The notes beneath the pieces are model-generated. The model did not search any database. It saw nothing but the letters and a program-made list of their open reading frames with translations, and was not told the origin of the DNA. The translations under genes and the position numbers were made by a program. Shown here piece after piece: positions 4,765 to 58,908 of a DNA stretch of 64,000 nt. Each line of letters starts with the position of its first letter. Positions within the stretch are counted from its first letter, which is position 1. Source of the stretch: Camellia lanceoleosa (lineage: Eukaryota > Streptophyta > Magnoliopsida > Ericales > Theaceae). The stretch lies in contig CM045758.1 in the NCBI GenBank assembly GCA_025200525.1, forward strand, positions 6,072,580 through 6,136,579, written 5' to 3'.

Positions 4765-5395
4765 TGAAAATGAGATGCCTCAAAAAGCGTGCACGCGGGC
4801 ACGCAAAATGAGGCGATGGCATAAAATGCAAATCGGATAAAATAGAGTGCCTCGAAATGCGTGCACACGGGCACGCAAACTGAGGCGATGATATGAAGTG
4901 CAAATCGGATAAAACCGAAGTGCCTCGAAATGTGTGCACACGGGCACGCAAACCGAGGCGATGATATGAAGTGCAAATCGGATAAAACTGAAGTGCCTCA
5001 AAGTGCGTGCCAAATCGAGGCGATAATGAAGTGCAAATCGGATAAAACCGAAGTGTCTCGAAATACGTGCACACGGGCACGCAAATTGAGGCGATGATAT
5101 GAAGTGCAAATCGGATAAAACCGAAGTGCCTCAAAATGCGTGCACACAGGCACGCAAACCGAGGCGATGATATGAAGTGTAAATCGAATAAAATCGAAGT
5201 GCCTCGAAATGTGTGCACACGGGCACGCAAACCGAGGCGATGATATGAAGTGCAAATCGGATAAAACCAAAGTGCCTCGAAATGCGTGCACACGGGCACG
5301 CAAACCGAGGCGATGATATGAAGTGCAAATCGGATAAAACCGAAGTGCCTCGAAATACGTGCACACGGGCACGCAAACCGAGGCGATGATGAAAT
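4765..5395. repeat. 73-bp satellite array with hairpin core (left LTR)
   Basis: About nine head-to-tail units of 73 bp (for example gaag starting at 4917 and again at 4990). Each unit contains the nested inverted repeat CCTCG-aaat-GCGTGC-acacgg-GCACGC-aaac-CGAGG, so each can fold into a stem with two paired blocks. Because 73 is not a multiple of three, the array is open in all three minus-strand frames, and these frames should not be read as protein genes. Confidence 0.9.
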
Positions 5396-5965
5396 GGAAT
5401 GAAATGGCATACGGAATGCCACGATGGGCTTACACCAACATGGGAGAGCCTCAGCTCACTCACATAGGAGGCCGTCGGATAAAAAAAAGAGATGCCTTGA
5501 AGTGCGTGCACACGGACACGCAAACCGAGGAATGCATGAAATGGCATACGGAATGCAATGATGGGCTTATACCAACATGAGAGGGCCTCAGCCACACTCA
5601 CACGGGATGCCGTCGGATAAAAAATGAGGTGCCTCGAATTGCGTGCACACGGGCACGCAAACCGAGGTATGGCCCGAAGGCATGAAATGGCATACGGAAT
5701 GCGAATTGGGCTTACGCTAACATGAGAGGGCCTCAGCCACACTCACATAAGCCGCCGGCGGATAAAAAATGAAGTGCCTCGAAATGCGTGCACACGGGCA
5801 CGCAAACCGAGGCATGGCCCGAAGGCATGAAATGGCATACGGAATGCGAATTGGGCTTACGCTAACATGAGAGGGCCTCAGCCACACGCACATAAGCCGC
5901 CGATGGATGAAAATGAAGTGCCTTGAAATGCGTGCACACGGGCACGCAAACTGAGGCATGGCCCG
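5396..5965. repeat. Longer composite satellite units sharing the hairpin core (left LTR)
   Basis: About four units of roughly 135-150 bp follow the 73-bp array. They keep the same GCGTGC/GCACGC hairpin core but add a segment with gggcttac, acatgagagggcctcag and a gccgtcgg/gccgccgg block. This looks like expansion of the core with a different spacer. Confidence 0.8.
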
Positions 5966-7150
5966 AAGGCATGAAATGATGCACAAAATGAGACGTGGCA
6001 TATGGCACATGGTAAATGCAAATTTCAGCAGCCAAAACGATGCAAAACAGCCCCCCGAATTATAGCAAAATTACATCCAATGCCCGAAATGTCATGCTAT
6101 GCACTCGAAATGGCTTGCAGCTATGCCAAATATGCAGAATATGGACATGAAGTGTAAAGACAGATGCTAGGAAGTCCCTAAACTAGAATTTTTCCAGTAC
6201 AAAGAATGGCCAAACAACAACCACAAGTATGGAAAAAACAGCATGCAAAAATGGGGAAAAAAGGTGGAATTATTAAGCAAGTAGTATATACAATGCCCAA
6301 ACTGAAAAACACAGTTCTACAACACTAAAGAGGGTCCAAAAATAGGAACATTTACAGCTTATGGAAGCCCTCAAAACAGCATACAAATATGGCAAACTTA
6401 GCATGCAAAATATGGACCAAAAGTGGGCTATAAAGGGAGATATATCAAGCATTCTCCAAACAGCCTAAAACCCTTAACAAAACATGAAGAGTGGGTCATT
6501 TTAAGACTATTTCCAGTTCTGATCATGGCCAAAAACAGAAGCAAGATCGGCCTAAAAAATCATGCAAGATATGGACCAAACATGAGATTTCAAGATAGGT
6601 ATATCAAGCATTCACCAAACAAAGTTGAGCCCTTCTACAATGTTGTATAGGGGCTCAAAATAAGCTCAATCACAGTTTATGGCATGCTCCAAAAATAAAT
6701 GCATATAAGCTAAAAATAGCATGCAAGTTTACGGTAAATATGATGATTTGTGAAGCAAGTGCAAGATAGAGTTACCAAACATGGTTGAGCCCTTCTACAA
6801 TGTTGTAGAGGGGCTCAAAATGAGCCTAAAATCAGTTAGGGTCGGAGCCCAAAAACTCAAGAAAAGGGGGTAGAAAAATGATACAAAATAGAGCTAGAAA
6901 AGGGAAAATAGCAACTTACCCTTGTAGACCAAAACCTTGGCTGCTTCTAGGACTGAAAATGGTGCCTCTTAGCTGCTGGAAGGCCCTCCTTGCTGCTGGA
7001 AATGGTGTAGTGGTGGTGGTGCTAGGTGGTGATGAAGAGGGGGTGTAGAAACTTGAATGATTTTGGTATTTGAAATATAGAGAGAGAGATTGTATGGAGG
7101 AGCTCCCAAATCAGATTTTCTAACCCTAAAAACCACAGCTGTGGCTGCTG

Positions 7151-7159
7151 TTATAAAGG
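7151..7159 (-). promoter_or_regulatory. LTR TATA box (left LTR)
   Basis: The minus strand reads CTTTATAAC, followed within about 35 bp by TAGGGTTAG. The same arrangement occurs at 24054-24062 in the other LTR, and a TATA plus TAGGGTT pair occurs near 13836 in the related solo LTR. This supports minus-strand transcription; it is predicted, not measured. Confidence 0.5.
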
Positions 7160-7851
7160 CAAAATGAGGGGGAAAATGGAGGGAAAAAAGGGAGGGAAAA
7201 CATATCAAGTTTCCTGCCAAAAATGGCCAAAAAGGAAAGTGGTAGCTACGGGTTTCAAATGGCCGAGAGCCCTTCAACAAAGTTTAAGAGGGGCTCAAAA
7301 TAAGACACTTTGTAGTTTACGACCAAGTCCAACACCGCCCACAAGTACGCCTAAAATACCGTGCAAAAAGGCCCAAAAAGAGGTAAAAAGGCAAGTGACA
7401 GATGGAGATGTCAAACAGTAAAAGGTCCTTAATCAAACATGAAAAGGACCTCAAAATATGACTATCTCAAGTTTGGGTCGGAGCCCAAAAATGTAGAATG
7501 AAGGTTCGGAGCGAAACACGTAGTTCGAGGCCCCGAAAGTGGGCTGTTAGGCACCGGGAGTGGTGCACGACCACGAAGTTGGTCTCTCGGACCCCAGTGT
7601 CCCTCGAAATGATAAAACAGAGGTACCTGCCAAAATTGAACAAAAATTGATGCAAAATGAATGCTCGGGACCCAAATCACGCAGTTCGGGGTCCCGAAAA
7701 TAGGCCGTGAGCACCGAAAGTGGTGTTCGGCCACGAAGTGGGTATTAGAGGCCCCAGTGTCCCTCGGAATGATAAAACAGAGGCACTTGCCAAAAATCGG
7801 AGAAATCGGAGATGGTTGGACGGTCCCGAACCGAGGCACACGGCCTGACGG

Positions 7852-20020: not shown

Positions 20021-21674
20021 CAGAATAAGCCCGCGAGGACCTCGCTTCTGATTCGGACTCGATTTTGTTCGGTTCTCAAATCTTGAACCAAAGAGTCCAA
20101 ATCCGCAAATCGCTTTGAAGAAAAAGATTTTTGAAAGAAGTGCCAAACATGGACCGCTTTGCGGATAATGAGTCGCCACCTAAATATTTAAAATGGGAAA
20201 TTTAGGAAACCCTGACTCGGTGCCGAAAGGCCACGTGTCCGTCATCACCAAAGTTGCCTCGGCTCGGGAACTTGGGTACGATTGGGGAAGGTCACATCGT
20301 GAGCACCCCCTCTCGCCCGGTCAAAGACCGGCCTCTACTAACCATGATATCTGTTTTTTAAAATATTGCATGCTCTTATTCCGGTTATTAGCCTAGGATT
20401 ACTATGTGATGCTCGCAGCAAACAAGTATAGACTGAGTCGTCTGAATTGGAACTAAACATTTCATGCTTGTTTGTTTGAAAATTGTGTGATGGTGCTACC
20501 CGCAGGTAGGCTAAAATGCGGATTTGCCACCCTCAGGTGGGCTTAGAAAATATGATTTTGCCACTATCTAGTGGGCTTAAAACAAACATTTGACGCATTG
20601 TCCCAATTCAGATAACTCAACCTCCACCCACAGGCATTCAAGGCAATTATATCACATAAGCATTTAGCCTCATGGTAAGCATGCTATCATGGCAACACTC
20701 ACACGCATGCAAGGATGCTAAAGCATAACCACTTACCGAGTACTCCAAGCCAAAACAGGGAAATGATTAGAAATCATGCATGAATCCTAAATATGCTGAA
20801 ATGCCTAATGCAACACATGCAAAATGCAACTATAGCAGGCTCGGCTATTCTAAACATGGCATGTGAGATGCTACAGATAGCATGTATTCAATTTTGGATT
20901 GTAATACAGATGCAGTTTGTATGATGCGCCGAGCCTAATGCATGCAATAACAGATGAATGATGCAAACATGCTGTCATACTGTATGCTAATTGAAATATG
21001 CCCTATATCTAACCATCAAAGCAGGTAAATAAAAGGGAGAAAGACGTGGGATTGGAAGACATACATCACACTCACACACCCTTATTACAATTATGCCCTC
21101 GCGCAGAGGGTCCGAATAAATATACAGTCCGAATAAAAGAATATACAGTCCGGAAATAAATATACAAATTTCTAATTAATTGACAAATTAATTAATAAAA
21201 GCGAAGCGGCGTGCAAGCCGTGGACGCTTGCTTCGATAGATGCCGCTGTTGGTCGCTTTGGCGGAAATCCACTGGGATGCCCGATTAGCCTCTGTTGGCA
21301 ATATTTCTTGAAATGCGCGTCCGACTCCGAAAGGTGCTAAACTCTGAATTTTGCTGCAACAGAGAGCAGGAAAAGGGCACAGCAGTGTATTTCACAAATA
21401 TATGCATGCCTCGATCCTCGTGCCACCAATCACGCATATCGATGCATGATGGCCGAGGAGCCAATTGCACAACTCAATATCGGATGAATGCGGATGAATG
21501 CTACAACAAAAACCTAACTCCATCATGGGTAATCCGAGTGTCGATGAATCGGGAATTGAGACACACTCGCCACTGAGTACGGAATGAATGTACCTGCTTT
21601 CCGGCGATATGCATGATATGCATGAAATGCAATCCTGACATACACACTATTATGAAAATGAGATGAAAATGAGA

Positions 21675-22300
21675 TGCCTCAAAAAGCGTGCACGCGGGCA
21701 CGCAAACCGAGGCGATGGCATAAAATGCAAATCGGATAAAATAGAGTGCCTCGAAATGCGTGCACACGGGCACGCAAACTGAGGCGATGATATGAAGTGC
21801 AAATCGGATAAAACTGAAGTGCCTCGAAATGCGTACACACGGGTACGCAAACCGAGACGATGATATAAAGTGCAAATCGGATAAAACCGAAGTGCCTCGA
21901 AGTGCGTGCCCACGGGCACGCAAACCGAGGCGATGATGAAGTGCAAATCGGATAAAACTGAAGTGCCTCGAAATACGTGCACACGGGCACGCAAACCGAG
22001 GTGATGATATGAAGTGCAAATCGGATAAAACCGAAGTGCCTCGAAATGCGTGCACACGGGCATGCAAACCGAGGCGATGATATGAAGTGCAAATCGGATA
22101 AAACCGAAGTGCCTCGAAATGTGTGCACACGGGCACGCAAACCGAGGCGATGATATGAAGTACAAATCGGATAAAATCGAAGTGCCTCGAAATGCGTGCA
22201 CACGGGCACGCAAACCGAGGCGATGATATGAAGTGCAAATCGGATAAAACTGAAGGGCCTCGAAATACGTACACACGAGCACGCAAACCGAGGCGATGAT
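21675..22300. repeat. 73-bp satellite array with hairpin core (right LTR)
   Basis: About nine units corresponding to 4765-5395 in the left LTR. The copies differ between the two LTRs by point changes (for example tacacacgggtacgc near 21835), and a 381-residue open frame on the minus strand (21501-22646) is only the repeat read through. Confidence 0.9.
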
Positions 22301-22870
22301 GAAATGGAATGAAATGGCATACGGAATGCCACGATGGGCTTACACCAACATGGGAGAGCCTCAGCTCACTCACATAGGAGGCCGTCGGATAAAAAAAAGA
22401 GATGCCTTGAAGTGCGTGCACACGGGCACGCAAACCGAGGAATGCATGAAATGGCATACGGAATGCAATGATGGGCTTATACCAACATGAGAGGGCCTCA
22501 GCCACACTCACACGGGATGCCGTCGGATAAAAAATGAGGTGCCTCGAATTGCGTGCACACGGGCACGCAAACCGAGGTATGGCCCGAAGGAATGGAATGG
22601 CATAATGAATTGGGCTTACGCTAACATGAGAGGGCCTCAGCCACACTCACATAAGCCGCCGGCGGATAAAAAATGAAGGGCCTCGAAATGCGTGCACACG
22701 GGCACGCAAACCGAGGCATGGCCCGAAGGCATGAAATGGCATACGGAATGCGAATTGGGCTTACGCTAACATGAGAGGGCCTCAGCCACACGCACATAAG
22801 CCGCCGATGGATGAAAATGAAGTGCCTTGAAATGCGTGCACACGGGCACGCAAACCGAGGCATGGCCCGA
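22301..22870. repeat. Composite hairpin satellite units (right LTR)
   Basis: Counterpart of 5396-5965, about four units with the shared GCGTGC/GCACGC core and the gggcttac...gagggcctcag spacer. Confidence 0.8.
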
Positions 22871-24053
22871 AGACATGAAATGATGGACAAAATGAGACGT
22901 GGCATATGGCACATGGTAAATGAAAATTTCAGCAGCCAAAACGATGCAAAACAGCCCCCGAATTATAGCAAAATTACATCCAATGCCCGAAATGTCATGC
23001 TATGCACTCGAAATGGCTTGCAGCTATGCCAAATATGCAGAATATGGACATGAAGTGTAAAGACAGATGCTAGGAAGTCCCTAAACTAGCATTTTTCCAG
23101 TACAAAGAATGGCCAAACAACAACCACAAGTATGGAAAAAACAGCATGCAAAAATGGGGAAAAAAGGTGGAATTATTAAGCAAGTAGTATATACAATGCC
23201 CAAAATGAAAAACACAGTTCTACAACACTAAAGAGGGTCCAAAAATAGGAACATTTACAGCTTATGGAAGCCCTCAAAACAGCATACAAATATGGCAAAC
23301 TTAGCATGCAAAATATGGACCAAAAGTGGGCTATAAAGGGAGATATATCAAGCATTCTCCAAACAGCCTAAAACCCTTAACAAAACATGAAGAGTGGGTC
23401 ATTTTAAGACTATTTCCAGTTCTGATCATGGCCAAAAACAGAAGCAAGATCGGCCTAAAAAATCATGCAAGATATGGACCAAACATGAGATTTCAAGATA
23501 GGTATATCAAGCATTCACCAAACAAAGTTGAGCCCTTCTACAATGTTGTAGAGGGGATCAAAATAAGCTCAATCACAGTTTATGGCATGCTCCAAAAATA
23601 AATGCATATAAGCTAAAAATAGCATGCAAGTTTACGGTAAATATGATGATTTGTGAAGCAAGTGCAAGATAGAGTTACCAAACATGGTTGAGCCCTTCTA
23701 CAATGTTGTAGAGGGGCTCAAAATGAGCCTAAAATCAGTTAGGGTCGGAGCCCAAAAACTCAAGAAAAGGGGGTAGAAAAATGATACAAAATAGAGCTAG
23801 AAAAGGGAAAATAGCAACTTACCCTTGTAGACCAAAACCTTGGCTGCTTCTAGGACTGAAAATGGTGCCTCTTAGCTGCTGGAAGGCCCTCCTTGCTGCT
23901 GGAAATGGTGTAGTGGTGGTGGTGCTAGGTGGTGATGAAGAGGGGGTGTAGAAACTTGAATGATTTTGGTATTTGAAATATAGAGAGAGAGATTGTATGG
24001 AGGAGCTCCCAAATCAGATTTTCTAACCCTAAAAACCACAGCTGGGGCTGCTG

Positions 24054-24062
24054 TTATAAAGG
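24054..24062 (-). promoter_or_regulatory. LTR TATA box (right, 5' LTR)
   Basis: The minus strand reads CTTTATAAC as in the left LTR. This copy would drive the element's own transcript leftward, starting near 24020-24030. Predicted from sequence only. Confidence 0.5.
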
Positions 24063-25026
24063 CAAAATGAGGGGGAAAATGGAGGGAAAAAAGGGAGGGA
24101 AAACATATCAAGTTTCCCGCCAAAAATGGCCAAAAAGGAAAGTGGTAGCTACGGGTTTCAAATGGCCGAGAGCCCTTCAACAAAGTTGAAGAGGGGCTCA
24201 AAATAAGACACTTTGTAGTTTACAACCAAGTCCAACACCGCCCACAAGTACGCCTAAAATACCGTGCAAAAAGGCCCAAAAAGAGGTAAAAAGGCAAGTG
24301 ACAGATGGAGATGTCAAACAGTAAAAGGTCCTTAATCAAACATGAAAAGGACCTCAAAATATGACTATCTCAAGTTTGGGTCGGAGCCCAAAAATGTAGA
24401 ATGAAGGTTCGGGAGCCGAAACACGTAGTTCGAGGCCCCGAAAGTGGGCTGTTAGGCACCGGGAGTGGTGCACGACCACGAAGTTGGTCTCTCGGACCCC
24501 AGTGTCCCTCGAAATGATAAAACAGAGGTACCTGCCAAAATTGAACAAAAATTGATGCAAAATGAATGCTCGGGGCACAAATCACGCAGCCGGTCCGAAA
24601 ATAGGCCGTGAGCACCGAAAGTGGTGTTCGGCCACGAAGTGGGTATTAGAGGCCCCAGTGTCCCTCGGAATGATAAAACGGAGGCACTTGCCAAAAATCG
24701 GGGAAATCGGAGATGGTTGGACGGTCCCGAAAACCGGGAACCGGGCTCCGAAATGGGCAAAATGGCCTACGGCCACGAAAAGTAGCCCACGGCTACTGAG
24801 AGATAGTCTACGGGACCACTCCCTCCCCTCAGGAAATAAAACAGAGAAAACCGAGTCTGGTTCGCAAACCGAGGCAGGGCACGAAAGAGAGTTCGGAAGT
24901 CCGGAGGCAGGGCGCACGACCGCAATTCTGAGGCTTCTGAACGAGCACAATATGCAACATCACCGAGCGCTCAATCGGTGACGTCGGAGTCTTAAGGTCG
25001 GTCAAAAATGGGATGTCTACAATATA

Positions 25027-46433: not shown

Positions 46434-47208
46434 TCACTCACCCAAATATCCACCGCCATTTCCAAAACCACCATTTTCAGAGTCTGCTAAACCACCATTT
46501 TCAGTGTCCGTCGGCGGTGGCGGAGTGACGGCTGATGATGGAGAGTGTCTTGGTGTTGCTGGTGGTACTGCATCAAGCTTTCCACTGACATGGTCGAGCT
46601 TTCTATCTATGGCATCCATTTTTTTAAGCAAGGTTGCCGTCGAGCTTTCCATCTATTTTCTCAGTGATGTTGTGAAGTTTTCCAGCAATGGCATCCATTT
46701 TTTCGGTGATCTTGTGAACTTTCCCATCAATGACATCTATTTTTGTAATCAAACTGTCAAGCTTCCCCGTCAAGTTCTCGTTCATAACTTGAATAAATGA
46801 GTTAATTCTGGTAACCTCCCTCATCTGTTCCTTGGCATCTATGCCAGTCATGGATTTTATGATTTCTAATGATGCCTCTTTAGGGGACTTGTCTGTGACA
46901 GAGAGGAGAGTGGCCAAACTTTTCAAACTCATATCTCCAATACCCTGAAGAATCATAAGCTTGGAGAGATATTCCATTGAAGATGAATAGAATTTATCTT
47001 TCTTCTTCTTTTCATTCTCCTCCTCAACTTTCTTCTGTTCATCAGGCTTCTCTTCTTCGTTCTTCTCCTCCTCATCTTTCTCCTTAACAACAAGCTCCTC
47101 CTCCTCTTTTATCGTCCCGTCAGTCTCCTTCTCAACCTTCTCCTCATCAAGTTTGAGCTCATCATTTTTCAAAGTTTTTTGAAGAAAGTCATACTGCTCT
47201 CCAAACAT
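46434..47208 (-). CDS. Possible Glu/Lys-rich coiled-coil protein, probably frameshifted near its C-terminus
   Basis: From an ATG at 47208, 194 codons run to 46624. Residues 15-75 are almost wholly Glu, Lys and Asp (for example KDEEEKNEEEKPDEQKK), followed by a mixed helical part (YLSKLMILQGIGDMSLKSLA) and then heptad-like repeats KMDAIAGKL and ITEKIDGKL. The same heptad pattern continues in another frame from 46652 (KKMDAIDRKLDHVSGKLD) into a Pro/Ser and Gly/Asn-rich tail ending at 46434. Removing one T at the gcttaaaaaaa tract would join the two, so a one-base frameshift is likely. I do not recognise the family. Intracellular scaffold-like coiled coil is all that composition allows. The CACTA element begins about 180 bp upstream of the farther ATG at 47402. 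Confidence 0.5.
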
Positions 47209-47332
47209 AAATTTGTTTAACTTTCACTTCATCTTCATCTTGCATTCTTCATATGAAAAATAAAAAAATAAAAAAAAATGTCAGAAAAAATTCACGTAAA
47301 TCGAAAAAAAATGAAAAATAATCATATCATAC

Positions 47333-47402
47333 CTTTAAACTTTGCAGCATTGGAAGCTCTTCCAAAATGGTGCTTAATAACGAGAGAACCTCTCTTAGCC
47401 AT
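47333..47402 (-). CDS. Possible first exon upstream of the coiled-coil frame
   Basis: A coding-like start (MAKRGSLVIKHHFGRASN) is followed by a donor-like GTATGA at 47332. The phase does not join the 47208 frame at any AG I can see. The acceptor after gcaag would give an acidic stretch that stops after about 16 codons. Either the exon is from a different transcript or the gene has decayed. Confidence 0.3.
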
Positions 47403-47579
47403 TACAAGAACACACTGTGAGAGTAAGAAAAAAGTAGCGAGAGAAAAGCTTATATGTATAGTATATATATACTGATTGTGAGGTTGGGGTTTGCAGTGGA
47501 AAAGAGAGAGTGGGTGGGACGTATTGGAGGGGAAAGGCGGGGAGTGGGAGGAGATTTGCAGGTGAGGTACAGCTTTAGG

Positions 47580-49000
47580 CACTACAAGAAATCTAGGCTA
47601 TTGTGACAAAATTTGGTGACAAAATTTTTTTTTGTCTTAAAATTTAACCCAAAGATGACGAAATATTAATTTTGTCGTTTGTTTTAATTTTTCTCAAAAG
47701 TATAGGAAACGAAAACAAAATTTCGTCTGCAAAAATGAGGCGCCAATTTCATTTGCATTGGCGTGAATTATATTAGCTCATTGGAGACGAACATTTTTGT
47801 CACAAAAAAAAAAAAAAAAAAAATTTGTGACGAACGTAATTCGTCGCCAATAAATTCCATACCTATTAAACGATGTTGTTACATATTTCCATTTATTAGG
47901 CGACAAATATATTTTTGTCTGGAAAGGATAAGTAATGGAAGACGAAAATATTTCGTCACCTATAAACACTCCATCATGCAGACAATGTCATTTCATCTTC
48001 CTATTAAATAGGCGACAAATATATTTTTGTCTCGGAAGAATAAGTTGTGGGAGACGAAAATATTTCGTCAGTAATAAATTCTAATTGATTGCGTGACGAA
48101 TATATTTTTCGTCTCATAAGGTTAAGTTGTGGAAGACAAAAATATTTCATCACCAATAATAAATTCTTTGTTCTGGTATTTAAGGATACAAAAATATTTT
48201 ATCACTAATCATTTGTGAGAAAAAATACAGAGAAACAAATAATAAAAAATTTGAAATTTTCAAAATTAATAGAAAACATTACCTTATTTAGTATAGAGTT
48301 TTCAATAATTAATTTTTAAAAATTGGTGATAAAATTTATTTTCGTTTTAGAACGTATCCCAAACATGACCAAATATTACTTTTGTCGTTTCTTTTAATTC
48401 TTCTCAAAACTATAGGAGACGAAAAAATAAATTAAATCGGGGAAAAAGAGGAGCCAATTATTTTAGCTCAATGGAGACGAACATTTTTGTCACAAAATTT
48501 AAAGATTTTTGCGACAAAAGGAATTCGTCACCAATAAATTCCAAACTTATAAGACGATGTCGTTTCATTTTCTTATTTATTTGGTGACAAATATATTTTT
48601 TGTCTGGGAATGATAAGTTATGGAAGACGAAAATATTTCGTCACCAATAAACTCTTCATGCTCATTTTATCTTTCTGTTCATTAGGCGACAAATATATTT
48701 TTGTCTTGGATGGATATGTTTTGGGAGATGAAAATATTTCGTCACTAATAAATTCTCCATGTGTCGTGTTGCATTTTTATTGATTGCGCGACGAATATAT
48801 TTTCGTCTCATAAGGTTAAGTTGAAGGACACGAAAATATTTCATCACCAATAAATTCTCCATCCCCACACAACGTTGTTTTTGTATTTTTGTTGATTAGG
48901 CAACGAACATATGAGTTTGAGACGAAAATATTTTATCACTAATTATTTCTCTTTATTAAAATGTCGTCAGAAACTAAGAGGCACTCTCACCTTAATCACT
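47580..49000. repeat. Left subterminal repeat region of the CACTA element
   Basis: Repeated blocks of gacgaaaatatttcgtcacc and ggcgacaaatatatttttgtc alternate in both orientations, with unit spacing of about 60-120 bp. The region has no coding content. The open frames here come from these repeats. Confidence 0.85.
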
Positions 49001-49312
49001 TACTTTCACACACACACAAATACTAAAATCGTGACCCGAAAAGACACCCTCTACAAACCCTCATTTTTCTCTCGCACTTGAGTCTCCCCTCTCACAAGTA
49101 TTGAAGCTGTGACTTGAGAAAACAATCTGTATAAACCATCTCTTCTATTTCGCACTGAAGCTCCTCTATTCTCTCTCACATTTAAGCCGTTTGTGCATGC
49201 AAACATTATTATCCAAGAAGACATTTTGTGCAAAGCTACTATTCTTTCTCACAGTAAACCCCTCTCCACAAAAAGAAAAAAATAATAATAATAATTAAAC
49301 ACGGAAACAAAA

Positions 49313-50000
49313 TATAAGAAATCTAGGCTATTATGACAAAATTTGGTGACGAAATTTTTTTTTTGTATTAAAATTTAACCCAAAGATGACAAAATATTAA
49401 TTTTGTCATTTGTTTTAATTTTTCTCAAACGTATAGGAGACGAAAAAAAATTTTGTCTCCAAAATTCAAGCGCCAATTTCATTTGCATTGGCGCGAATTA
49501 TTTTAGCTCATTGAAGACGAACATTTTTTGTCACAAAATATATATATATTTTGCGAAAAACATAATTCGTCACCAATAAATTCCCTACCTATTAAACGAT
49601 GTCGTTGCATATTTCCATTTATTAGGCGACAAATATGTTTTTGTCTAGGAATGATAAGTTATGGAAGACGAAAATATTTCGTCACCAATAAACACTCCAT
49701 CATGCAAACGATGCCGTTTCATCTTTATATTAAATGGGCAACAAATATATTTTTGTCACTAATTATTTGTCTTTATTAATATGCTATGGTTTTGTGTTTC
49801 GGAGCACTGAAACCGTGACCCCAAGAGACACACTCTGACCCTTATCACTCATTTCATGTGCACGGACACTCAAGTCGTGACCCAAGAAGACACTTCTTGC
49901 AAACCCTCATTTATCTCTCGTACTTGAGCCTACTCCTCTCTCACAAGTATTGAAGTCGTGAAGCAAGAAGACCCAAGAAGACACTTCCTGCAATCTATAT
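49313..50000. repeat. Second, internal copy of the left CACTA end
   Basis: From ataagaaatctaggctatta onward, this matches 47586-48000 in order, including the tttaacccaaagatgac and cattggcgcgaatta blocks. The terminal CACTAC is decayed (caaaat). Between and after the copies lies a cgtgacccaagaagacac minisatellite (about 49028-49260 and 49805-49995). This indicates internal duplication of the end or insertion of one CACTA end into another. Confidence 0.8.
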
Positions 50001-50136
50001 TTTTTTAGTGAACATTTTTTAATATTATATATATATATATATTTACTTTTTAAATCCCTTTAATTTAGATGAGAGCAAATTGCAGCAGTTGTCCCGGTAC
50101 TTTGGTCCTTGTGTCATGTAAATGGTATGTGCCATA

Positions 50137-50140
50137 TCTA

Positions 50141-50171
<31 letters not shown>

Positions 50172-50205
50172 ATCTATATCTATATCTATATCTATCTATA
50201 CTATA
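50137..50205 (+). repeat. (TATC)n/(TATATC)n microsatellite
   Basis: Mixed run of tatc and tatatc units. Confidence 0.9.
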
Positions 50206-50480
50206 TATTAAGCAATAGGGGATTTTTAACTCATAGGCCTTGTGAGAGCTCCAATATCCTAATCCTCATTTTCTATTTTTTTTGATTTTTTTCCTTTAAA
50301 AAAAAACTCAGCATTTATTAAATTCTCTAAAATCTTTTTGACTTCATTTTCAATGCTTGATTGGAAGAAAACCTATAGGCTAATGTGAACTCTACTATTG
50401 AATGTTTTAATTAAAGCCTATGCACACCAAATTTATTAATTGAGTCCCCCATCGTCAAATGAAAAATTCTGACATATTAT

Positions 50481-50522
50481 ATGTTTTGTCCACCTATATC
50501 TATATATAGGTGGACAAAACAT
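50481..50522. repeat. Perfect inverted repeat, 19-bp stem
   Basis: Arms 50481-50499 and 50504-50522 (atgttttgtccacctatat and its exact complement) enclose the 4-base loop ctat. Confidence 0.95.
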
Positions 50523-51263
50523 ATATATATCAAAAACAAAACAAAAAATTCAATAATAATAGCGTGACAATGTGATTTCAATGTTATTTAGGAAGTGTTA
50601 GTGGGCACAAGTGTATTATTCAAACATATTTGGATTCATGCGAAAATAATATCCCAATACTTACAACCAAACACCCCAAATTGAAGCTGAAAAATAGGAA
50701 AACAAAAAGCTACAAAAACACATTAAGAGGACAAAGAACATGAATATGATGGAATAACAACAAAAAAAAAACAACGTGAAAAGTTTAAGCCAAAGAAGTG
50801 ATTACACTAAAAAAACCAAAAAAAAAAAAATAAAAAATCATGAAAGGAGTAATAAAATGCATTCTACAGTCACCTACAAACCCACTCAGGTACTTATTAA
50901 TGCATCAACAAAATGTCTTTGACTACCACACGATTAGTCAAATAAATGTATATAACACATAAATATACAATATATATACATATATGTATACAACTTTCCC
51001 GCTCCTCTCTCTTCCGTCGAAAACTGCGTCTGACACGCGGTTTGCTTTTGCGCCGATTGGCCGACAAAAGTAGGTTTCATCGATTACCGCTCACCTCGAC
51101 TCTCTCTCCATCTTGTCTTCTTCTCTTCAGTATTATTCTGAATCAGCATCTTCAATTTTCTACTTATTCGTTCATTTCTCTTCCTTCCTCATCACTCTCT
51201 TCCATCTCCCTCTTCATCACTCTCTTTTGTTTCCTTTCTTGCTCTCTACATCTCTCACCACAC

Positions 51264-51857
51264 ATGGCCTCATCTCGTCCCCTCACTCTCTTTCCGGACC
51301 TCCATGATCCGAGCTCCTCTGGACCAAGTGTCCCTGCTCCTATCCCTCCTAACCTTCCTGGATCGAGTGCCCCTGTTCCCATTCTTCCTAACCTTCCTGG
51401 ACCGAGTGCCCCTGTTCCCATTCCCCCTAGCTTTCCTATGATATCAGTTGAGCAAATCATGGCTGCTCAATCTGACATTGAGGCCAACCACTTCACACTA
51501 AGTTCTTGCATGGAAACCGTGACTGCGGTTACCAAATTATCTCACCGGTTACAGAATAGAACCATTGAAGTACAAAAGCTAAACTCCCAACTTTCTCTGC
51601 TCCAGAGCATGTACAGAGATGCGCGAGCAGAAATTTGCGCCCTAAAGGCAGAGAACAAAGAGTTGAAGCGAAAGACCACCGTCATGACCCGACTCGGAGC
51701 ACCTCCGTACTTCACCTTTGACAACCAGCAGGGAGTCATATCCCTCGTCGGTCCTGCACATACTGAGGCAGAGCCTTCAAAGGTCAACCAAATAGGAGTC
51801 AAATCCCGGCGGTCCTCAAGACGTCTTGGCAGAGCCTTCAAAAGTCTCCCGAAGTGA
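51264..51857 (+). CDS. Small coiled-coil protein, family unnamed, copy 1 (C-terminus altered)
   Basis: 197 codons from the ATG in cacatggcctcatct, chosen because copy 3 starts with the same MASSR..LFPDL sequence. Layout: residues 1-65 are rich in Pro/Ser with three repeats of the PNLPG(S/P)SAPVPI type. Residues 68-140 are a predicted coiled coil ([52 protein letters not shown]). The tail contains [10 protein letters not shown] partial tandem duplication (51732-51785 repeated at 51796-51847) shifts the frame, so this copy ends FKSLPK. The nuclear-localisation-like DKKRK tail found in copy 3 survives out of frame at about 51850-51893. Function unknown. The coiled coil suggests dimerisation. Confidence 0.6.
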
Positions 51858-51971
51858 CAAAAAAAGGAAGGGCTCGGCGGGAGAGTCGAGTAAGTGAAGT
51901 CGACATGTGGCTGTTATCCAAAACAAGATCTTTTTTTTTTTTTTTTTGCTGCTGTTGTTGCCTCTGTAATC

Positions 51972-51999
51972 GGGGATGTCATCCCCTGACTTCAATAAA
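51972..51999 (+). promoter_or_regulatory. 3' hairpin and polyadenylation signal of copy 1
   Basis: ggggatgtcatcccc (51972-51986) forms a 6-bp stem, and AATAAA follows at 51994. The same arrangement lies after copy 3 (54237-54262). Predicted 3' untranslated element. Confidence 0.5.
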
Positions 52000-52952
52000 A
52001 TTAGTTTTGCTTTGCCCTTTTTGTTTTACACAACTATGGCTTAATTCCATTATAATGTTAATTATGAATCATTGCGATATTGATTGATATTATTTTAATT
52101 ATGATTTAAAAGATTTTTAATTATACATTATATGATTTTTTTTATGACTCAAATTTTTTTTTTTTAATTATGACTGAAAATAATTCAATCATTACATTTG
52201 TGATAATTAACCCCACAAATGTAATAATTTACTTACTATAGCATGACTCATATTTGGAAATTCTATATTTTTTTAGTTAATTTGAAAGTGTCAACCAACT
52301 GGGATCAAATAATGAAAGCCAAATTGGAGATGACTTAGAGGTCAATGGCAGCACAAATGAGTACAAAGAAGAAAAAATGAGCAATTTCTAAAAAGATGAC
52401 AACACCACTAAATTAGATTCAAGATACAGTGCTAAGACAAACAAAAGGGTTTTGAAATTTAAAGATAAATTATAAGATAAATTAAAAGATAAATTATAAA
52501 TATATATTTTAAAATTTACTTAAAATACAAATTATCCTTTATAGTTTGAAAATTATAAATATTTTTTTTTAAAATTCTTAATTTAACAAAATTAATAGAA
52601 AAAATAAAAATTTTAATTGCTCTTTTAGATAACAATAAAATTATTTGAATTGTAATTAAAATATATTTTTAATATCATTAAAAAATATTTATTAACTTGA
52701 TAATTTATTAATAAAAAATAATTATTTATTATGTAATTAAAAACTTAAAACAGTGTAGTGGAAAAATTATATGACACAATTTATATTTTAAATTAAAGAG
52801 GAAAGTTGCCGACTCAACATAAAGCAACATGAGCAATGTCGGTAGAGAAGAAATGAAAAAAAGAAAAAAAATGGAAGGAAGGGGAATAGCATAAGGGTTG
52901 TTTGGATAGAATGTTAGAAAAATGTAGTACCAATTTCCACGAAAAAAATAAA
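52000..52952. other. AT-rich spacer inside the CACTA element
   Basis: Mostly AT-rich. A coding-like stretch on plus at about 52283-52391 (SNNESQIGDDLEVNGSTNEY, then a stop) may be a further captured exon from an unrecognised gene. Confidence 0.4.
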
Positions 52953-53245
52953 TTAACCTGTCTCACCGTCTGCAAAACAAGGCGTGTGAGGTATACCAGG
53001 TCAACGCCCAACTGTCTCTACTCTAGTGTATGTACAGAGATGCACGGGTAGAGATTTGTGCCTTGAAGGCTGAAAACAAGGAGCTGAAAAGACACTCCAC
53101 CTCTATGGCCCGATTTGGGGCATCTTCGTACCTCGCCTTTGATAGTCGGCGGGGAGTCGACTCTGTTGGCGGAAACACTGTGGTCGTTCTTGATGGAAGT
53201 ACGGGAGCAGGGTCTTCGAAGATTGACGACAAAAAGAGTATTATG
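52953..53245 (+). pseudogene. Small coiled-coil protein family, copy 2, broken
   Basis: Aligns with copies 1 and 3 from LSHRLQNKA through [20 protein letters not shown] to SSKIDDKK. The N-terminal third, including the start, is absent. A TAG at about 53018 replaces the Gln/Ser codon before the MYRDAR block. The basic tail is interrupted after DDKK. It lies between the two longer copies on the same strand, so the three form a tandem family. Confidence 0.82.
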
Positions 53246-53532
53246 ATGTCTACGTATACTCTAAGACTATTTAACTATATTTGTAAGAATATATTTTATT
53301 TTTTTTATTGATTGGATAAACAAAAAAAGGATAAACAAAAAAAAAAGTAAATAAACAAAAAATTGATAAATATTTGATATAAAAACAAAAAATAATAATA
53401 AAAAAACAAAAAAAACAAAAAAATAAAAAAGAATACAAAAAAATAATATAGTATGGCCGGGGGGATTTTTGGAGGGAAGAGATAAAAAAAAAGAATACAA
53501 AAAAATTTCTTCTTTCCTCTTTCTTCCCATAC
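53246..53532. other. A-rich spacer before copy 3
   Basis: Dominated by aaaaaac and aaaataa runs. Minus-strand frames here are Phe/Tyr-rich artefacts of that composition. Confidence 0.7.
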
Positions 53533-54057
53533 ATGGCTTCGTCTCGCCATCTCTCTCTGTTTCCGGATCTTAATGATCCATCGAGCTCCTCTGGGCCAAG
53601 TGCCCCTGCTCTTACTCATCCCAGTCTTCCTACACTATCAGTTGAGCAAGTGATGGCTGCTCAAACTGATATTGATGCTAACCACCTCACACTGAAGTCG
53701 TGTATGGAAACAGTGGCCGCGGTCACTAATTTGTCTCACCGTCTGCAAAACAGGACGAGTGAGCTACATCGGGTTAATGCCCAACTTAATCTGCTTCAGC
53801 AGATGTATAGGGATGCACGAGCGGAGGTTTGTGCGCTGAAGGCAGAGAACAAAGAACTGAAACGGAAGACTACCTCCATGGAGAGTAGAGAGGTAAAACG
53901 ACAGACCATTTGTCTGGACCAGTTCGGAGCGCCGGCGTACTTTTCCTTTGATGGTCGGCGAAAAGTGAACTCTTTTGCCGGAAACATTGAGGCAGGGCCT
54001 TCGAAGGCCGATGACAAAAAGAGGAAGAGCTCGGCGACGGAAGAGCCGAGTAACTGA
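53533..54057 (+). CDS. Small coiled-coil protein, family unnamed, copy 3 (most complete)
   Basis: 174 codons in one open frame. Layout: residues 1-35 Pro/Ser-rich ([20 protein letters not shown]); 36-118 predicted coiled coil with regular Leu/Met spacing ([58 protein letters not shown]); a short segment [15 protein letters not shown]; then a basic tail [11 protein letters not shown] that looks like a nuclear localisation signal. Copies 1 and 2 diverge mostly in the N-terminal repeats and the tail, and the coiled coil is the best kept. The arrangement could suit a DNA-associated dimer, but I cannot name a family. It may be a captured host gene or an accessory protein of the transposon. Expression is not shown. 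Confidence 0.65.
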
Positions 54058-54236
54058 AGCTGGCATGTGGCCGGCACCGGCGAAGAAGAAGAAGAAGAAC
54101 AATGATCTGTTTTTTTTTTATTTCTTTTTCTGGACTTTGTATTTTATTTTATTTTTTTATTTTTCTGGGTTTGTTTTTTTGTATTTCTTTTTTTTTTGTA
54201 TTTCTTTTTTTTTTTTTTTTTTGAGTCTTTGTAATC

Positions 54237-54262
54237 GGGGATGTCCTCCCCTAACTTCAATG
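54237..54262 (+). promoter_or_regulatory. 3' hairpin of copy 3
   Basis: ggggatgtcctcccc forms a 5-bp stem, preceded by gtaatc and followed by taacttcaatgaaatcag, closely matching the region after copy 1. The AATAAA hexamer is AATGAA here. Confidence 0.45.
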
Positions 54263-54299
54263 AAATCAGTTTCTTTTTTTGTTTTTTGCTCATCACTGG

Positions 54300-54865
54300 C
54301 ATGACTGGCATTGAACTTAAATAATAAATAAATTGTGATAAAATTGTGAGACTTAAATTTTAAATTTCAATCTTTTTTATTTTCATAATTTGCATAAAAA
54401 ATTTAACTATGATAAAATTGCATCCTTTATTAAAAAATTATACCACACTCCTTTATTAATTTGAAATCTAAAACTAAATAGAGCCTAAAATAATTGGAGG
54501 GAGATTTCAAATTTTGGAGTGATTAAAAATAAAATTAGCGCCTAAAATATTTAGTGGCCAATTGTTATTAATTATTCTACTACTCTCCCAGTCCCCTCCC
54601 ATTTCACTCTCTCATCATAATTAAATTATTTTTATAAAAAATCTTAAAAACATAATTAACTAATTAACTTCTCCCATACACTAATTAATTTATAAAATTC
54701 GAATTAACTAATTAACTAATTACACTAATTAATTAATTTATTTTCCTAATTAGATCTCTAAGGCACCGTTTCCTAATTAGAAATAAATAAGAAACACCAA
54801 AAATTTAGGGGGAAATTTGAAACAAGGAGGGGGGAAACACCAAGTAGAAATAAATAAGAAACACC
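54300..54865. other. AT-rich spacer between coiled-coil genes and captured fragments
   Basis: Contains repeated aattaactaattaa motifs (54650-54745) and a short direct repeat gaaacaccaag (54792, 54833, 54859). No coding signal. Confidence 0.5.
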
Positions 54866-55115
54866 AAGTTCGCCTTTTTTCCTCCGAACCCACCTTCATA
54901 CAAGCTGATCACAACTCTTCTCTACTCTCATGGAAACACCAAGTGGAAGTACTGAAATTACCGACTCGTAAAGGGACAGAGGTAGTGGCGGTGTACATAC
55001 GACACCCTATGGCGACCTCAACTCTTCTCTACTCTCATGGTAACGTCGCCGATCTGGGTCAGATGTATGATCTCTTCATCGAATTGAGCATCCACTTGAA
55101 AGTTAATCTCATGGG
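54866..55115 (+). pseudogene. Captured first-exon fragment of an ABHD17-like alpha/beta hydrolase
   Basis: ABHD17-type serine hydrolases remove fatty acyl groups from membrane proteins. 54866-54915 encodes [14 protein letters not shown], the conserved N-terminus of plant members. After a frame change, 54940-55115 encodes [49 protein letters not shown] and LMG, then a donor-like GT at 55116. The HGN motif is present. The nucleophile and other catalytic residues lie in exons not captured. A copy of actcttctctactctcatgg (about 54911) duplicates 55022-55041 and has replaced the original sequence between the two parts, which causes the break. Confidence 0.85.

Positions 55116-55118
<3 letters not shown>

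Positions 55119-55154
<36 letters not shown>
55119..55154 (+). repeat. (CT)n microsatellite
   Basis: Lies immediately after the ABHD17-like donor. Confidence 0.95.
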
Positions 55155-55157
<3 letters not shown>

Positions 55158-55261
55158 AATCTCTGTGAATCTTCTGGCATTAGGGTTTAGTTGGAATGTC
55201 ATCAATTTTTTGCAAATTTATTTACTTTAGAGGTTATCTCTACTGATATCTGAGGCTGTGG

Positions 55262-55554
55262 GTGATTTTGGTTGTTAATTGTGGGTCTGATCTCGAGACT
55301 AATGTTGTTTCGGATTCTCTGAGGTTGTCCTCGGCGGCGGACTCAGATTACTCTGCTGATATCGAAAATGGGGTTCGTGAAATCAAGGTTCATTTGGGGA
55401 GAGTAGAGAGAGATTGTCGAATTTGTCAACTCAGTTTGGAGACTACTAATCCAGAGTCTGGAATTGCAATCGAATTGGGTTGTTCTTGCAAGGATGACTT
55501 GGCTGCTGCACATAAGAGTTGTGCTGAAGCTTGGTTCAAGATTAAGGGAAATAA
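55262..55554 (+). pseudogene. Captured exon of a RING-CH (RINGv) E3 ligase-like protein
   Basis: RING-CH proteins are membrane-linked ubiquitin ligases. The open segment ends with RDCRICQLSLETT, IAIELGCSCKDDLAAAHKSC and AEAWFKIKGN, then a donor gtgagt at 55555. The first four cysteines, the histidine and the next cysteine of the C4HC3 zinc site are present. The last cysteine pair (TCEIC-type) should be in the next exon, which is absent. The acidic stretch before the RING (residues 25-40) suits the family. The fragment would not fold a complete RING. It lies 146 bp after the ABHD17-like fragment on the same strand. Confidence 0.85.
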
Positions 55555-55576
55555 GTGAGTCAAAAATCATAGCTCG

Positions 55577-55614
<38 letters not shown>
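55577..55614 (+). repeat. (CT)n(AT)n microsatellite
   Basis: CT run followed by an AT run, near the RING-CH donor. Confidence 0.95.
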
Positions 55615-55615
<1 letters not shown>

Positions 55616-56033
55616 AATTTTTAATTTAATTGCATTATTTGATTAGTGTCTTTTTTTATTTTTATGTTTTTATGATGAATTTGATATACCCAGGTTTAGC
55701 TTAGTTATGCAAGTTTTGATTTTTATGAAATGTGTGAGTCAGTGAATACCTCTGTTTAAGTTTATGCTTATCTTCTTGAGTCAGTGAATACCTCTATTTA
55801 TGCTTCCAAGTTTTGAACTTATTTTGATGTTTTTCGACTTTCAAAGAGTTTTACAGTAACTTAATTGAGTCATGTTTTCAAAATAATGGTTACTGACAGT
55901 GATTAAGGAAGAACCTTGTTACTTCTGAACTTAGAATTTACTGATTTCAAGCCTATTGCTCTCCTCTGCAAAAAGGTTCTTCCTTATCTACCATTTGTTT
56001 TGAATAACAATATATGTTGTCACCTCTTTCCAG
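55615..56033. other. Intron-like AT/T-rich spacer
   Basis: No coding signal. It contains a direct repeat (gagtcagtgaatacctct near 55734 and 55779) and ends in a pyrimidine tract plus cag before the fumarase exon. Confidence 0.55.
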
Positions 56034-56099
56034 AAAATTGGTTATGACAATGCTGCAGCAGTTGCCAAGAAAGCCCACAGGGAGGGAAGCACTCTGAAG
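56034..56099 (+). pseudogene. FUM1: Captured fumarase exon fragment
   Basis: Fumarase interconverts fumarate and malate in mitochondria. The 22 codons read KIGYDNAAAVAKKAHREGST and LK, matching the C-terminal domain of plant class II fumarases. They are bordered by an acceptor (ctctttccag) and a donor (gtgatg), so it looks like a genuine exon copied with its intron flanks. No other fumarase exon is visible nearby, so it is an isolated fragment. Confidence 0.85.
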
Positions 56100-57653
56100 G
56101 TGATGGCCTTTTCTAATTTCTTTGCAATGCCAGGGTGTCTTTTTGCTGTTCGATTATATATCCATGACTAAAATTTATCAGAACTTGACTTTAACCTAAT
56201 TAATAAAAACTTAAAAATTCTGACACACTCAAATTATAAGTAGGTTCTAAATATAATACGCTGAAGCTGTCAATATTTTGGATTGAACTTGTAACTTTGT
56301 AAGACTTGGCAACAACTTCACAGATTGTTGTTCTACTCTTTTTTATGATTTGTTGTTCAACATTTTATTTATAAGTAGTCTATTTAGGCAAGCATATCAC
56401 TTATCCTAAAAAACATTTTATGTGTAAAATTGACTTCTCCTTCTCTGTGTTGAACAATTTATTTATATGCCATTTAGAATTTGGTGTTGAACAATTTATT
56501 TATATGCCACTGAAGGGTGTCCTCAATCAACTAAGGGTCACAGCAGGTCACTCCTTTACTACCTACTAGCCTCATAAGAATCTGACATCTGTTGAGGAGG
56601 GTTGACCTGAGGTCGAAAGTGAGGGCAAACCACTCTTATATCTGATTGCCCAAGTTATGATCTACAAAACATATCTCAAATAATTGGATTTAGGGATCCC
56701 AGTTTTGCATATAATTCTAACCAGTACCTAACTATAAACCAACCCATTGAAATGTCTAGGTCAGATATTGACCAATTCAACTAGCTGATCCAGTTGAGGT
56801 TTCTATCAGTGGGTGAAACCAACTTTCTTACGCTGGTGAGCCAAGAGAAAAAAGGTGGAAGATTACTGGATGGACAGTGTTCATCGTATGGACAAAGAAA
56901 TAGTTCAGATAACACGTAAAATAGTTAATTAAGAACCAGAGAACTAACCAAGGTAAGGTATTTACAGTCTTGTTGCTTAAGAATTTTGAATATTTGGGTG
57001 GCCATATCCATTGTCATCATGATGCTATCAACCCACTATTTGATGAATGCATGCCTACAAAATTTTAATTAAAAAAATTACTCAAAGATATCGCTATTAA
57101 CAATTGTTTGGTACGAGGATTCACGTAACAAAGATCGATAAGGAATTCATGGATCAGAGCAATGGTTAAGCAATCAAAAAATATCCTTCATTTTCATAAC
57201 AGCAGCTACATGTCCAATGCTATGTTGTCTGGAATGTAGATCATTCCACTACATGAAATGAGAAAGACAATATTGGTGTTCAAAACATAGTTGTTCTTTG
57301 CCTACATGGTGAGTAATTAGGTTGTTAAACATCCAGGAGTAGTATTGGTGTCTAGGGGCTTGATTGGTCAGCTAGTTGTCTCTAAGGAATTTGGCTGGAT
57401 AACTTTTTTGATTAAGTTGCAGTTTTATTATGCCAGGTAGTTGTCTCAATATGATGTACATGTTTATAGGATTTAATTGATTTTTGCAAAGATACAAGTT
57501 TGCAATCCAGTGTTGCTGTCACTAGAAATGCCACTATTAAACTAATTGGTGCTTTACATATATGTTGGTCCAAGTAACTTGTAATTTGGTTTGTGAAAAC
57601 TAGGGATATGTTGAGTTAAGGATAAGAATTCTAAGATGCACCTGTTGTTGCAG
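56100..57653. other. Long spacer between fumarase and MOR1 fragments
   Basis: Intron-like sequence with short frames only. It may include introns copied with the fragments. A direct repeat gttgaacaatttatttatatgcca occurs near 56447 and 56486. No further exon was recognised. Confidence 0.5.
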
Positions 57654-57878
57654 ACATCAAGGGATTTCTTTCAGATGTCAAACCTGCTCTTCTAAGTGCA
57701 CTTGAAGCTGAGTGTGAAATAAATCCAGTGTGAAATAAATGGGACTTGCAGTTGAGAAGTCTAGGTGCCTTACATCACTACTGCTTTGATGGATGCGAAG
57801 CTTGGCACGGAAGGGCGCAAGGATCTTTTTGATTGGCTATCAAGGCAACTTAGTGGATTAAGCAATTTTCCTGATGCT
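57654..57878 (+). pseudogene. MOR1: Captured MOR1 microtubule-associated protein fragments
   Basis: MOR1 (XMAP215/TOG family) promotes microtubule growth in plants. 57654-57728 encodes FLSDVKPALLSALEAE and CEINP; 57765-57878 encodes PYITTALMDAKLGTEGRKDL and FDWLSRQLSGLSNFPDA, both from the TOG-repeat region, then a donor-like gtaaat. An acceptor (ttgcag) precedes the first part. In the parent protein the two pieces are separated by well over a hundred residues, so the stretch between has been deleted or the exons were joined. A stop after INPV breaks the frame. Confidence 0.88.
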
Positions 57879-58017
57879 GTAAATCTGAATTATGTATTGT
57901 TTCAAATTGTTATGCTAGATGGATGTGACTTGTGAATGAAAACTTAGAATAGTTGTATTGTGTCGAATGTTAATGAATTATGTATTGTGTCAAATGTCAA
58001 ATGTTAATCATAATTTT
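57879..58017. other. Spacer after the MOR1 fragment
   Basis: Short AT-rich sequence with a repeated gaattatgtattgt motif leading into the right subterminal region. Confidence 0.6.
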
Positions 58018-58905
58018 TTTTGACATTGTTTCATCATTTTTAATGATGAATTTGTTTTTATCGCTATTGGTAGCTTTTTTGACAAAAAAATTTCGTCTTT
58101 GTTTATATTAAACGTGACAAAATTATTTCGTCTCTATTTCTTATATTTATAAGAAAATTTTTTTGTCTCTAATTTATTCCTTTAATGACAAAATATTTTG
58201 TCGCTAATTACTTACAAGTATGTTCCCAACAGAGTGTATTAGAGACAAAAAAATTCGTCACAAATTTATCATTTTTAATGATGAATTTGATTTTGTCTCT
58301 ATTGATAGCTTCTTTGACAAAAAAAATTTCGTCTTCGTTTATATTAAACGTGACAAAATTATTTCGTTTTTATTTCTTATATTTATGACAAAATACTTTT
58401 GTATCTAATTTCTTCTTTTAATGACAAAATATTTTGTCGCTAATTACTTACAAGTATGTTCCCAACAGAGTGTTTTGGAGATAAAAAAATTCGTCACAAA
58501 TTTATCATTTTTAATGATAAATTTGTTTTGTCTCTATTGGTAGCTTCTTTGACAAAAAAATTTCGTCTTCGTTTATATTAAACGTGACAAAATTATTTCG
58601 TCTCTATTTCTTACATTTATGACAAAAACTATTGTCTCTAATTTCTTCTTTTAATGACAAAATATTTTGTCGCTAATTACTTACAAGTATGTTCCCAACA
58701 GAGCATATTGGAGACAAAAAAATTCGTCACAAATTTTTCATGTTCAATGACGAAATTGTTTTTTCGTCTCTGAGACCCTTTAGCAACGAGGCTTTGGCAA
58801 CAAAACGGGTGACGAAAAATTTTCATCGTAATTAGTTTGGGTGACGAAATATATACATTTTGGGACAAATTTGTTTCGTCTTTAAATCCCAAATTTGTTG
58901 TAGTG
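58018..58905. repeat. Right subterminal region of the CACTA element with three tandem units
   Basis: Three tandem units of about 236 bp (attcgtcacaaattt at 58254, 58492 and 58726) contain aaaaaatttcgtc, gacaaaattatttcgtc and gacaaaatattttgtcgc. The last 170 bp before the terminus hold further gacgaaa motifs. The region is non-coding. Confidence 0.85.
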
Positions 58906-58908
58906 AGG

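Follow-up and report, generated by a model that had tools for sequence, protein, structure and literature searches.

The stretch of Camellia lanceoleosa DNA analysed here, hereafter the window (64,000 nucleotides, G000:C1:6072580-6136579, in an assembly of 3.0 Gb), carries at positions 47580-58905 a CACTA transposon of 11,326 bp whose boundaries are exact. We conclude, at a probability of about 0.78, that it is a non-autonomous element of the En/Spm type belonging to a high-copy Camellia family, and that it is a layered composite, part of whose cargo was later multiplied. The capture of gene fragments by CACTA elements, the presence of multiple donors and the retention of splice sites are already known; what is unexpected in an otherwise ordinary kind of element is a small coiled-coil gene that is readable in many copies.

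Ends and siblings of the element

The element is flanked by an exact target-site duplication, AGG (47577-47579 and 58906-58908), and its terminal inverted repeats begin with CACTA; the left one, CACTACAAGAAAT (47580-47592, + strand), and the right one, CACTACAACAAAT, differ at one base (11 of 12 or 13 agree). In the window, CACTACAA occurs a single time on the + strand, at 47580, and TTGTAGTG twice, at 58898 and 1899. Self-alignment and motif density delimit a left subterminal array (47580-49312, + strand), and the right array with its terminal repeat (58030-58905, + strand; units of ~236 bp) is 90-98% identical to that of the complete siblings described below, being partial in L026. Subterminal motifs reach 24.5 per kb in the left array and 41.1 per kb in the right, as compared to 2.1 per kb in the middle of the element and 1.2 and 2.2 per kb in the flanks, so that the end arrays are approximately 11 to 34 times denser than middle or flanks. 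The first-pass annotation of this DNA had read CACTA ends, an exact AGG duplication and arrays on both sides at these positions, and all of this is borne out.

A search of the host genome for the terminal 37-mer of the left end, allowing up to 3 mismatches, gave 242 matches, 40 of them exact when the window's own is included, and a reversed control gave none; these are places rather than elements, and 100 of the 242 are listed with positions. Roughly 10 kb was then read from each of 20 exact left ends, the window's excluded, and seven of these stretches were extended, for a total of 255.5 kb. Eight complete siblings with both ends were found, every one of which has an exact 3-bp duplication: L009 (9,098 bp, CAT), L011 (8,255 bp, TAT), L019 (8,928 bp, TTT), L025 (9,008 bp, TGA), L026 (8,546 bp, GCA), X010 (15,429 bp, TAT), X017 (16,714 bp, ATC) and X013 (10,517 bp, GCG). 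Of the two termini that the earlier reader had proposed to look for, the left one is thus plentiful, and approximately 2.1 kb of the element's left end is common to L009, L011, L019, L025 and L026 at 94-96%.

One feature could suggest that the two ends come from different elements, or that the arrangement is an assembly artefact: a second, internal left end with a degenerate terminus (49313-49757, + strand) is 88.5% identical to 47583-48031. However, internal second left ends also recur in siblings, ~1.8 or 2.3 kb inside their left ends, and 8/8 complete siblings pair the same ends with exact duplications. This excludes the refuting case named in the first-pass annotation, ends drawn from two different elements, and makes the broader alternative very improbable. 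Because siblings have it too, the inner left end is an old family trait and not specific to the window copy. Among the 100 left-end matches listed, 18 start AAATACAAG, and several of these are internal second ends, since a full left end begins ~2.2 kb further out. On chromosome 2 (C2:83361756-83380168), six left-end matches on the same strand, five of them ~1.8 kb apart, show CACTA left ends arrayed in tandem.

CACTA termini, a 3-bp duplication, subterminal repeats at both ends and a TNP2-type transposase within the family together place the element in the CACTA superfamily. The transposase side of X010 has the domains Transposase_21 (E 3.5e-86), DUF4218, Transpos_assoc and DUF4216, and X013 and X017 possess portions of the TNP2 machinery, but tblastn of the transposase-side proteins of X010 and X013 against the window (E 1e-3) revealed no transposase in the window element. 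Being without transposase and having host-gene pieces aboard, the element is non-autonomous and a Pack-CACTA, as it had been classified at first pass; the ends shared with siblings, their exact duplications, the lack of transposase similarity and the finding of a transposase-bearing sibling all agree with that class.

Cargo and layered assembly

Five segments of host-gene or other captured sequence follow one another on the + strand in the right half of the element. An ABHD17-like fragment (54866-55114), ending at a GT donor, matches three Camellia alpha/beta-hydrolases at 97-98% and one at 79%. It is followed by a RING-CH exon that retains its donor and a portion of the next intron (55287-55896; PF12906, E 2.1e-8; six Camellia proteins at 88-97%), by a fumarase exon with intron edges (55992-56175; PF10415, E 3e-8, plus PDB fumarase matches), by a further captured segment of unassigned nature (56507-57290) and by a MOR1-like segment with exon and intron parts (57290-57890). 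The earlier statement that four host-gene fragments (ABHD17, RING-CH, fumarase and MOR1) all lie on one strand is correct as to strand, and the first three are supported as to identity; likewise, the exons of these three (ABHD17, RING-CH and fumarase) show GT or AG splice borders.

Candidate parents could be named for most of these pieces. For RING-CH, C4:17420926-17421521 matches at 95% across both exon and intron, confirming the expectation that introns had been copied, and for fumarase, C13:48497635-48497818 matches at 97%, with four further places on chromosome 13 at 94-96%. For ABHD17 there are three alternative candidates, C4:18532075 (99% of 129 bases), C2:200023069 (88%) and C1:221008260 (87%), and the unassigned segment matches two regions of chromosome 11, at 64.29 or 26.55 Mb (C11:64287559-64288642 and C11:26554741-26555805), at 96-98%. 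The cargo thus derives from at least five sources, the coiled-coil gene not counted. The ABHD17, RING-CH, fumarase and chromosome-11 pieces found no match in the 20 sibling stretches, and the whole 2.4-kb cassette (54860-57290) recurs at C1:823988-826424 (98%) and C12:93023697-93026106 (97%), where, just as in the window element, a coiled-coil copy starts ~1.3 kb before the cassette does. Two shorter segments are also repeated elsewhere: the 110 bases between the ABHD17 and RING-CH pieces (55171-55280) occur at seven other genome places at 96-100%, and 89 bases at 56421-56509 are common to L026 (95.5%) and to several other places at 95-97%, one of which, on C3, is 8.4 kb past a left-end match.

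The MOR1-like piece has a different distribution, being present in 4/8 complete siblings (L009, L011, L019 and L025), where it adjoins the right array, and absent from the other four. Because these four siblings hold the same piece in the same place, it was not captured by the window copy itself. Intron-like sequence lies between the MOR1-like exons in L009, L011 and L019, and the window copy is without ~300 bases there. What lies between the coiled-coil gene and the position of the MOR1-like piece, by comparison, varies among the window element, L009, L011, L019, L025 and L026: the longest common stretch of this slot covers 652 columns (L011/L019), and all other slot matches are at most 102. 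L025 contains a chaperonin-60-like exon (PDB match, E 6.1e-5; zero Pfam matches).

Upstream of these pieces, and also on the + strand, are three copies of the coiled-coil gene: copy 1 (51264-51857), an intact frame of 197 amino acids with a conserved upstream stretch from ~50938; copy 2 (52961-53260), which is broken, 5'-truncated and interrupted by an inner stop; and copy 3 (53533-54057), an intact frame of 174 amino acids. Three copies had been reported at first pass, and three are present, two as intact frames and one as a broken piece. Their position side by side on one strand had suggested that a small gene was captured and then amplified in tandem inside the element. However, in a set of 13 copies (three from the window, ten from siblings) each window copy groups with copies of other elements: copy 1 (type 1) with L010, L017, L020 and L022, copy 2 (type 2) with L015, and copy 3 (type 3) with L009, L011, L019, L025 and L026. 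The approximately unbiased (AU) test rejects a grouping of window copies 1 and 3 (p = 8.5e-7) and of all three (p = 5e-38). The three copies are three old, separate lineages, the description as a tandem family falls, and tandem amplification within the window element is hardly credible.

The element thus most probably arose in layers. The chassis, consisting of the double left end and the right array, is family-wide, and the MOR1-like piece is common to a short-element subfamily. Uptake of the ABHD17, RING-CH, fumarase and chromosome-11 pieces took place in the element's own sublineage, and as genomic DNA including intron, because the genome matches run from exon into intron. The three coiled-coil modules, coming from three lineages, were probably brought together by fusion of neighbouring elements, and growth would proceed as such elements fuse and inner ends are lost, as proposed for Pack-CACTA elements growing by tandem insertion (PMC13317346 and PMC8903248, in the parts available); the degenerate inner left end, though old, is consistent with that proposal. 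The cassette and the adjoining coiled-coil gene would then have been multiplied to at least three places. Movement of the element itself presumably relied on TNP2 transposase supplied in trans by siblings, for example the 15.4-kb X010.

Several observations count against this account. No transposition was observed, the X010 transposase frame is broken by a stop after its first domain, and 12/20 sampled left ends are without a right end within the stretch read. Neither of the other two cassette copies lies at any left-end match among the 100 listed, their ends being unread. The name MOR1 for 57290-57890 is putative, and the segment has zero Pfam and zero PDB matches. Finally, X013 is the sole one of the eight complete siblings to lack the coiled-coil gene, and only 10/150 scored genome loci of this gene fall inside a left end, as judged from the 100 of 242 left-end matches listed.

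The coiled-coil gene and its carriers

The model of the copy 3 protein is a single predicted helix (residues 37-130) with low-confidence tails. A Foldseek search with this model gave zero PDB matches at E up to 10, and the protein is above the cut-off of zero curated Pfam families. Relatives are nonetheless numerous: a single-sequence search found 38 proteins and a profile search 185 at E <= 0.01 (the best 7,993 candidates being scored), single protein clusters have up to 104 members, and among 120 of the 185 profile matches listed every named one is from Camellia. The host genome holds 4,962 candidates, of which 150 were scored; all 150 matched copy 3, and 87 have no inner stop, in a list that favours type 3 because the query was the type-3 copy. 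The gene was therefore not made in the window element; it is a very abundant Camellia gene. Such abundance matters for gene counts in tea and camellia annotations, where many relatives are labelled hypothetical or unnamed proteins. In six tea gene models (P0018, P0031, P0180, P0211, P0226 and P0233) the coiled-coil protein is joined to other domains or names (e.g., receptor-like protein 37), possibly through misannotation or fusion.

Pairwise estimates of the ratio of nonsynonymous to synonymous substitution (dN/dS) in the 13-copy set, in which dS above 1 is saturated and which have no neutral control gene, lie between 0.12 and 0.32 in all 51 pairs with dS >= 0.8 (of 77 usable pairs) and between 0.30 and 2.27 in the seven pairs with dS < 0.1. 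This pattern is consistent with a master lineage of some kind in which selection maintains the gene, individual copies meanwhile decaying.

Selection of this kind is what one would expect if the gene were a functional CACTA accessory, for example a helper or an anti-silencing factor, selected on the transposon as the transposase is. The gene is present in 10/20 of the sampled first sibling stretches and in 7/8 complete siblings, including X010, where it stands beside the transposase. Moreover, ten of the scored genome copies have a listed left end nearby, five of them being the window copy and siblings already sampled; all ten lie 2.9-6.0 kb inward and on the element's strand, whereas no scored copy lies within 15 kb outward of the left-end matches listed. 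However, L015 and L022 hold the gene reversed, X013 does without it, most scored copies are away from listed ends, and both of the copies sampled from among these lie in another repeat; selection could instead act on another carrier or on a host gene. We regard such an accessory role in the CACTA family as improbable.

The two copies read without a listed end nearby, L036 (9 kb) and L037 (4 kb), belong to one repeat family. L036 lacks the end modules of the CACTA family, and L037 aligns with it over almost its full length, well past the gene. On either side of the gene, both are similar to the stretch downstream of an X020 Retrotrans_gag frame (PF03732, E 4.5e-11) and to part of a large long terminal repeat (LTR) element elsewhere in the window, so that relatives of this repeat are found beside gag or between paired LTRs, and by alignment the coiled-coil gene would run antisense to gag. 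Plant LTR retrotransposons can hold extra genes; in maize Grande, for instance, one lies antisense to gag and downstream, as the gene of L036 and L037 would. One explanation of these findings is that a gag-linked family of LTR retrotransposons has the coiled-coil gene as an extra gene, and that CACTA elements repeatedly took slices of it without benefit. The gene is much commoner than CACTA ends, and the CACTA-side copies (L009, L011, L019, L022, L025, L026, X010, X015 and X017) match L036 only in a slice around the gene, ~3818-5958. On the other hand, the sequences read included no complete retroelement containing the gene, no gag showed in L036 or L037, the related repeat stretches of X020 and the window are without the gene, and the slice has almost one and the same left edge in X010, X020 and L019, consistent with a single uptake. 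We give this explanation slightly less than even odds.

A third explanation is tentative and rather doubtful: the gene, so far seen only in Camellia, may be a selfish accessory carried by two unrelated mobile kinds, namely CACTA elements and a retrotransposon-like repeat linked to gag. Its copies would number from hundreds to thousands, many of them readable, and purifying selection would act on the lineages that move, presumably through some advantage that the gene gives its carriers (e.g., against silencing).

Other readings of the gene were given up. That it is purely CACTA-borne was withdrawn after the counts of genome loci and the reading of L036 and L037, and a simple insertion of the L036 gene into the window or X020 repeat copies was rejected since the alignment shows no clean edges. 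The gene is also not a TNPA-type second gene, X010 having a separate frame there, which we take to be TNPA-like and to which Pfam gave no name. An EAR-like reading of the N-terminal LFPDLNDP was dropped because the spacing does not match.

Known systems and neighbouring features

The closest precedent is Tgm-Express1 of soybean (PMC1947982), which, in the part of the account available, is likewise a non-autonomous CACTA element holding exon and intron pieces of unrelated host genes with splice sites kept. It carries five donor genes in 5.7 kb, so the four donors that had seemed exceptional in the 11.3-kb Camellia element are not. Its account, in that part, mentions no multi-copy coiled-coil gene and shows chimeric transcripts. 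The Pack-CACTA elements of Arabidopsis, maize and rice, as far as the available portions of PMC8903248 and PMC13317346 describe them, similarly combine CACTA ends, coding pieces and several donors per element, and in maize they are reported to include the most distinct loci (PMC8903248). As compared with those, the Camellia element has an inner left end that is long established in its family, and among its cargo is a gene that shows signals of selection and that transposase-bearing siblings also have. CACTA elements of Chenopodium have captured gene fragments and added coding domains (PMC8978399); there, in what was available of that paper, the elements have satellite arrays or a transposase joined by further conserved domains, whereas the Camellia coiled-coil gene matches no curated Pfam family above cut-off. 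A search of literature listings found no publication on the Camellia CACTA family or the coiled-coil gene, which is not proof of absence.

The family thus offers a view of layered gene capture within one genome: the chassis is common, the central slot changes, modules are fused, and siblings serve as before-and-after states of capture. The coiled-coil gene offers a testable case of a gene that has stayed readable while being common to two classes of mobile element.

Two further features of the window deserve mention. Direct repeats at 3128-7830 and 20024-24731 (4,738 columns, 96.9%) are LTR-like and would delimit a very large retroelement (3128-24731), whose inner part at 14300-17875 matches a stretch downstream of the X020 gag frame; inside the LTR-like repeats, at 4751-5742 and 21501-22962 (- strand), are long open frames of a repeated peptide unit. 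Immediately to the left of the CACTA element, a predicted coiled-coil gene (46627-47402, - strand) points away from it; the element begins 177 bases upstream of the likely start codon of this gene and may lie in its promoter or 5' leader.

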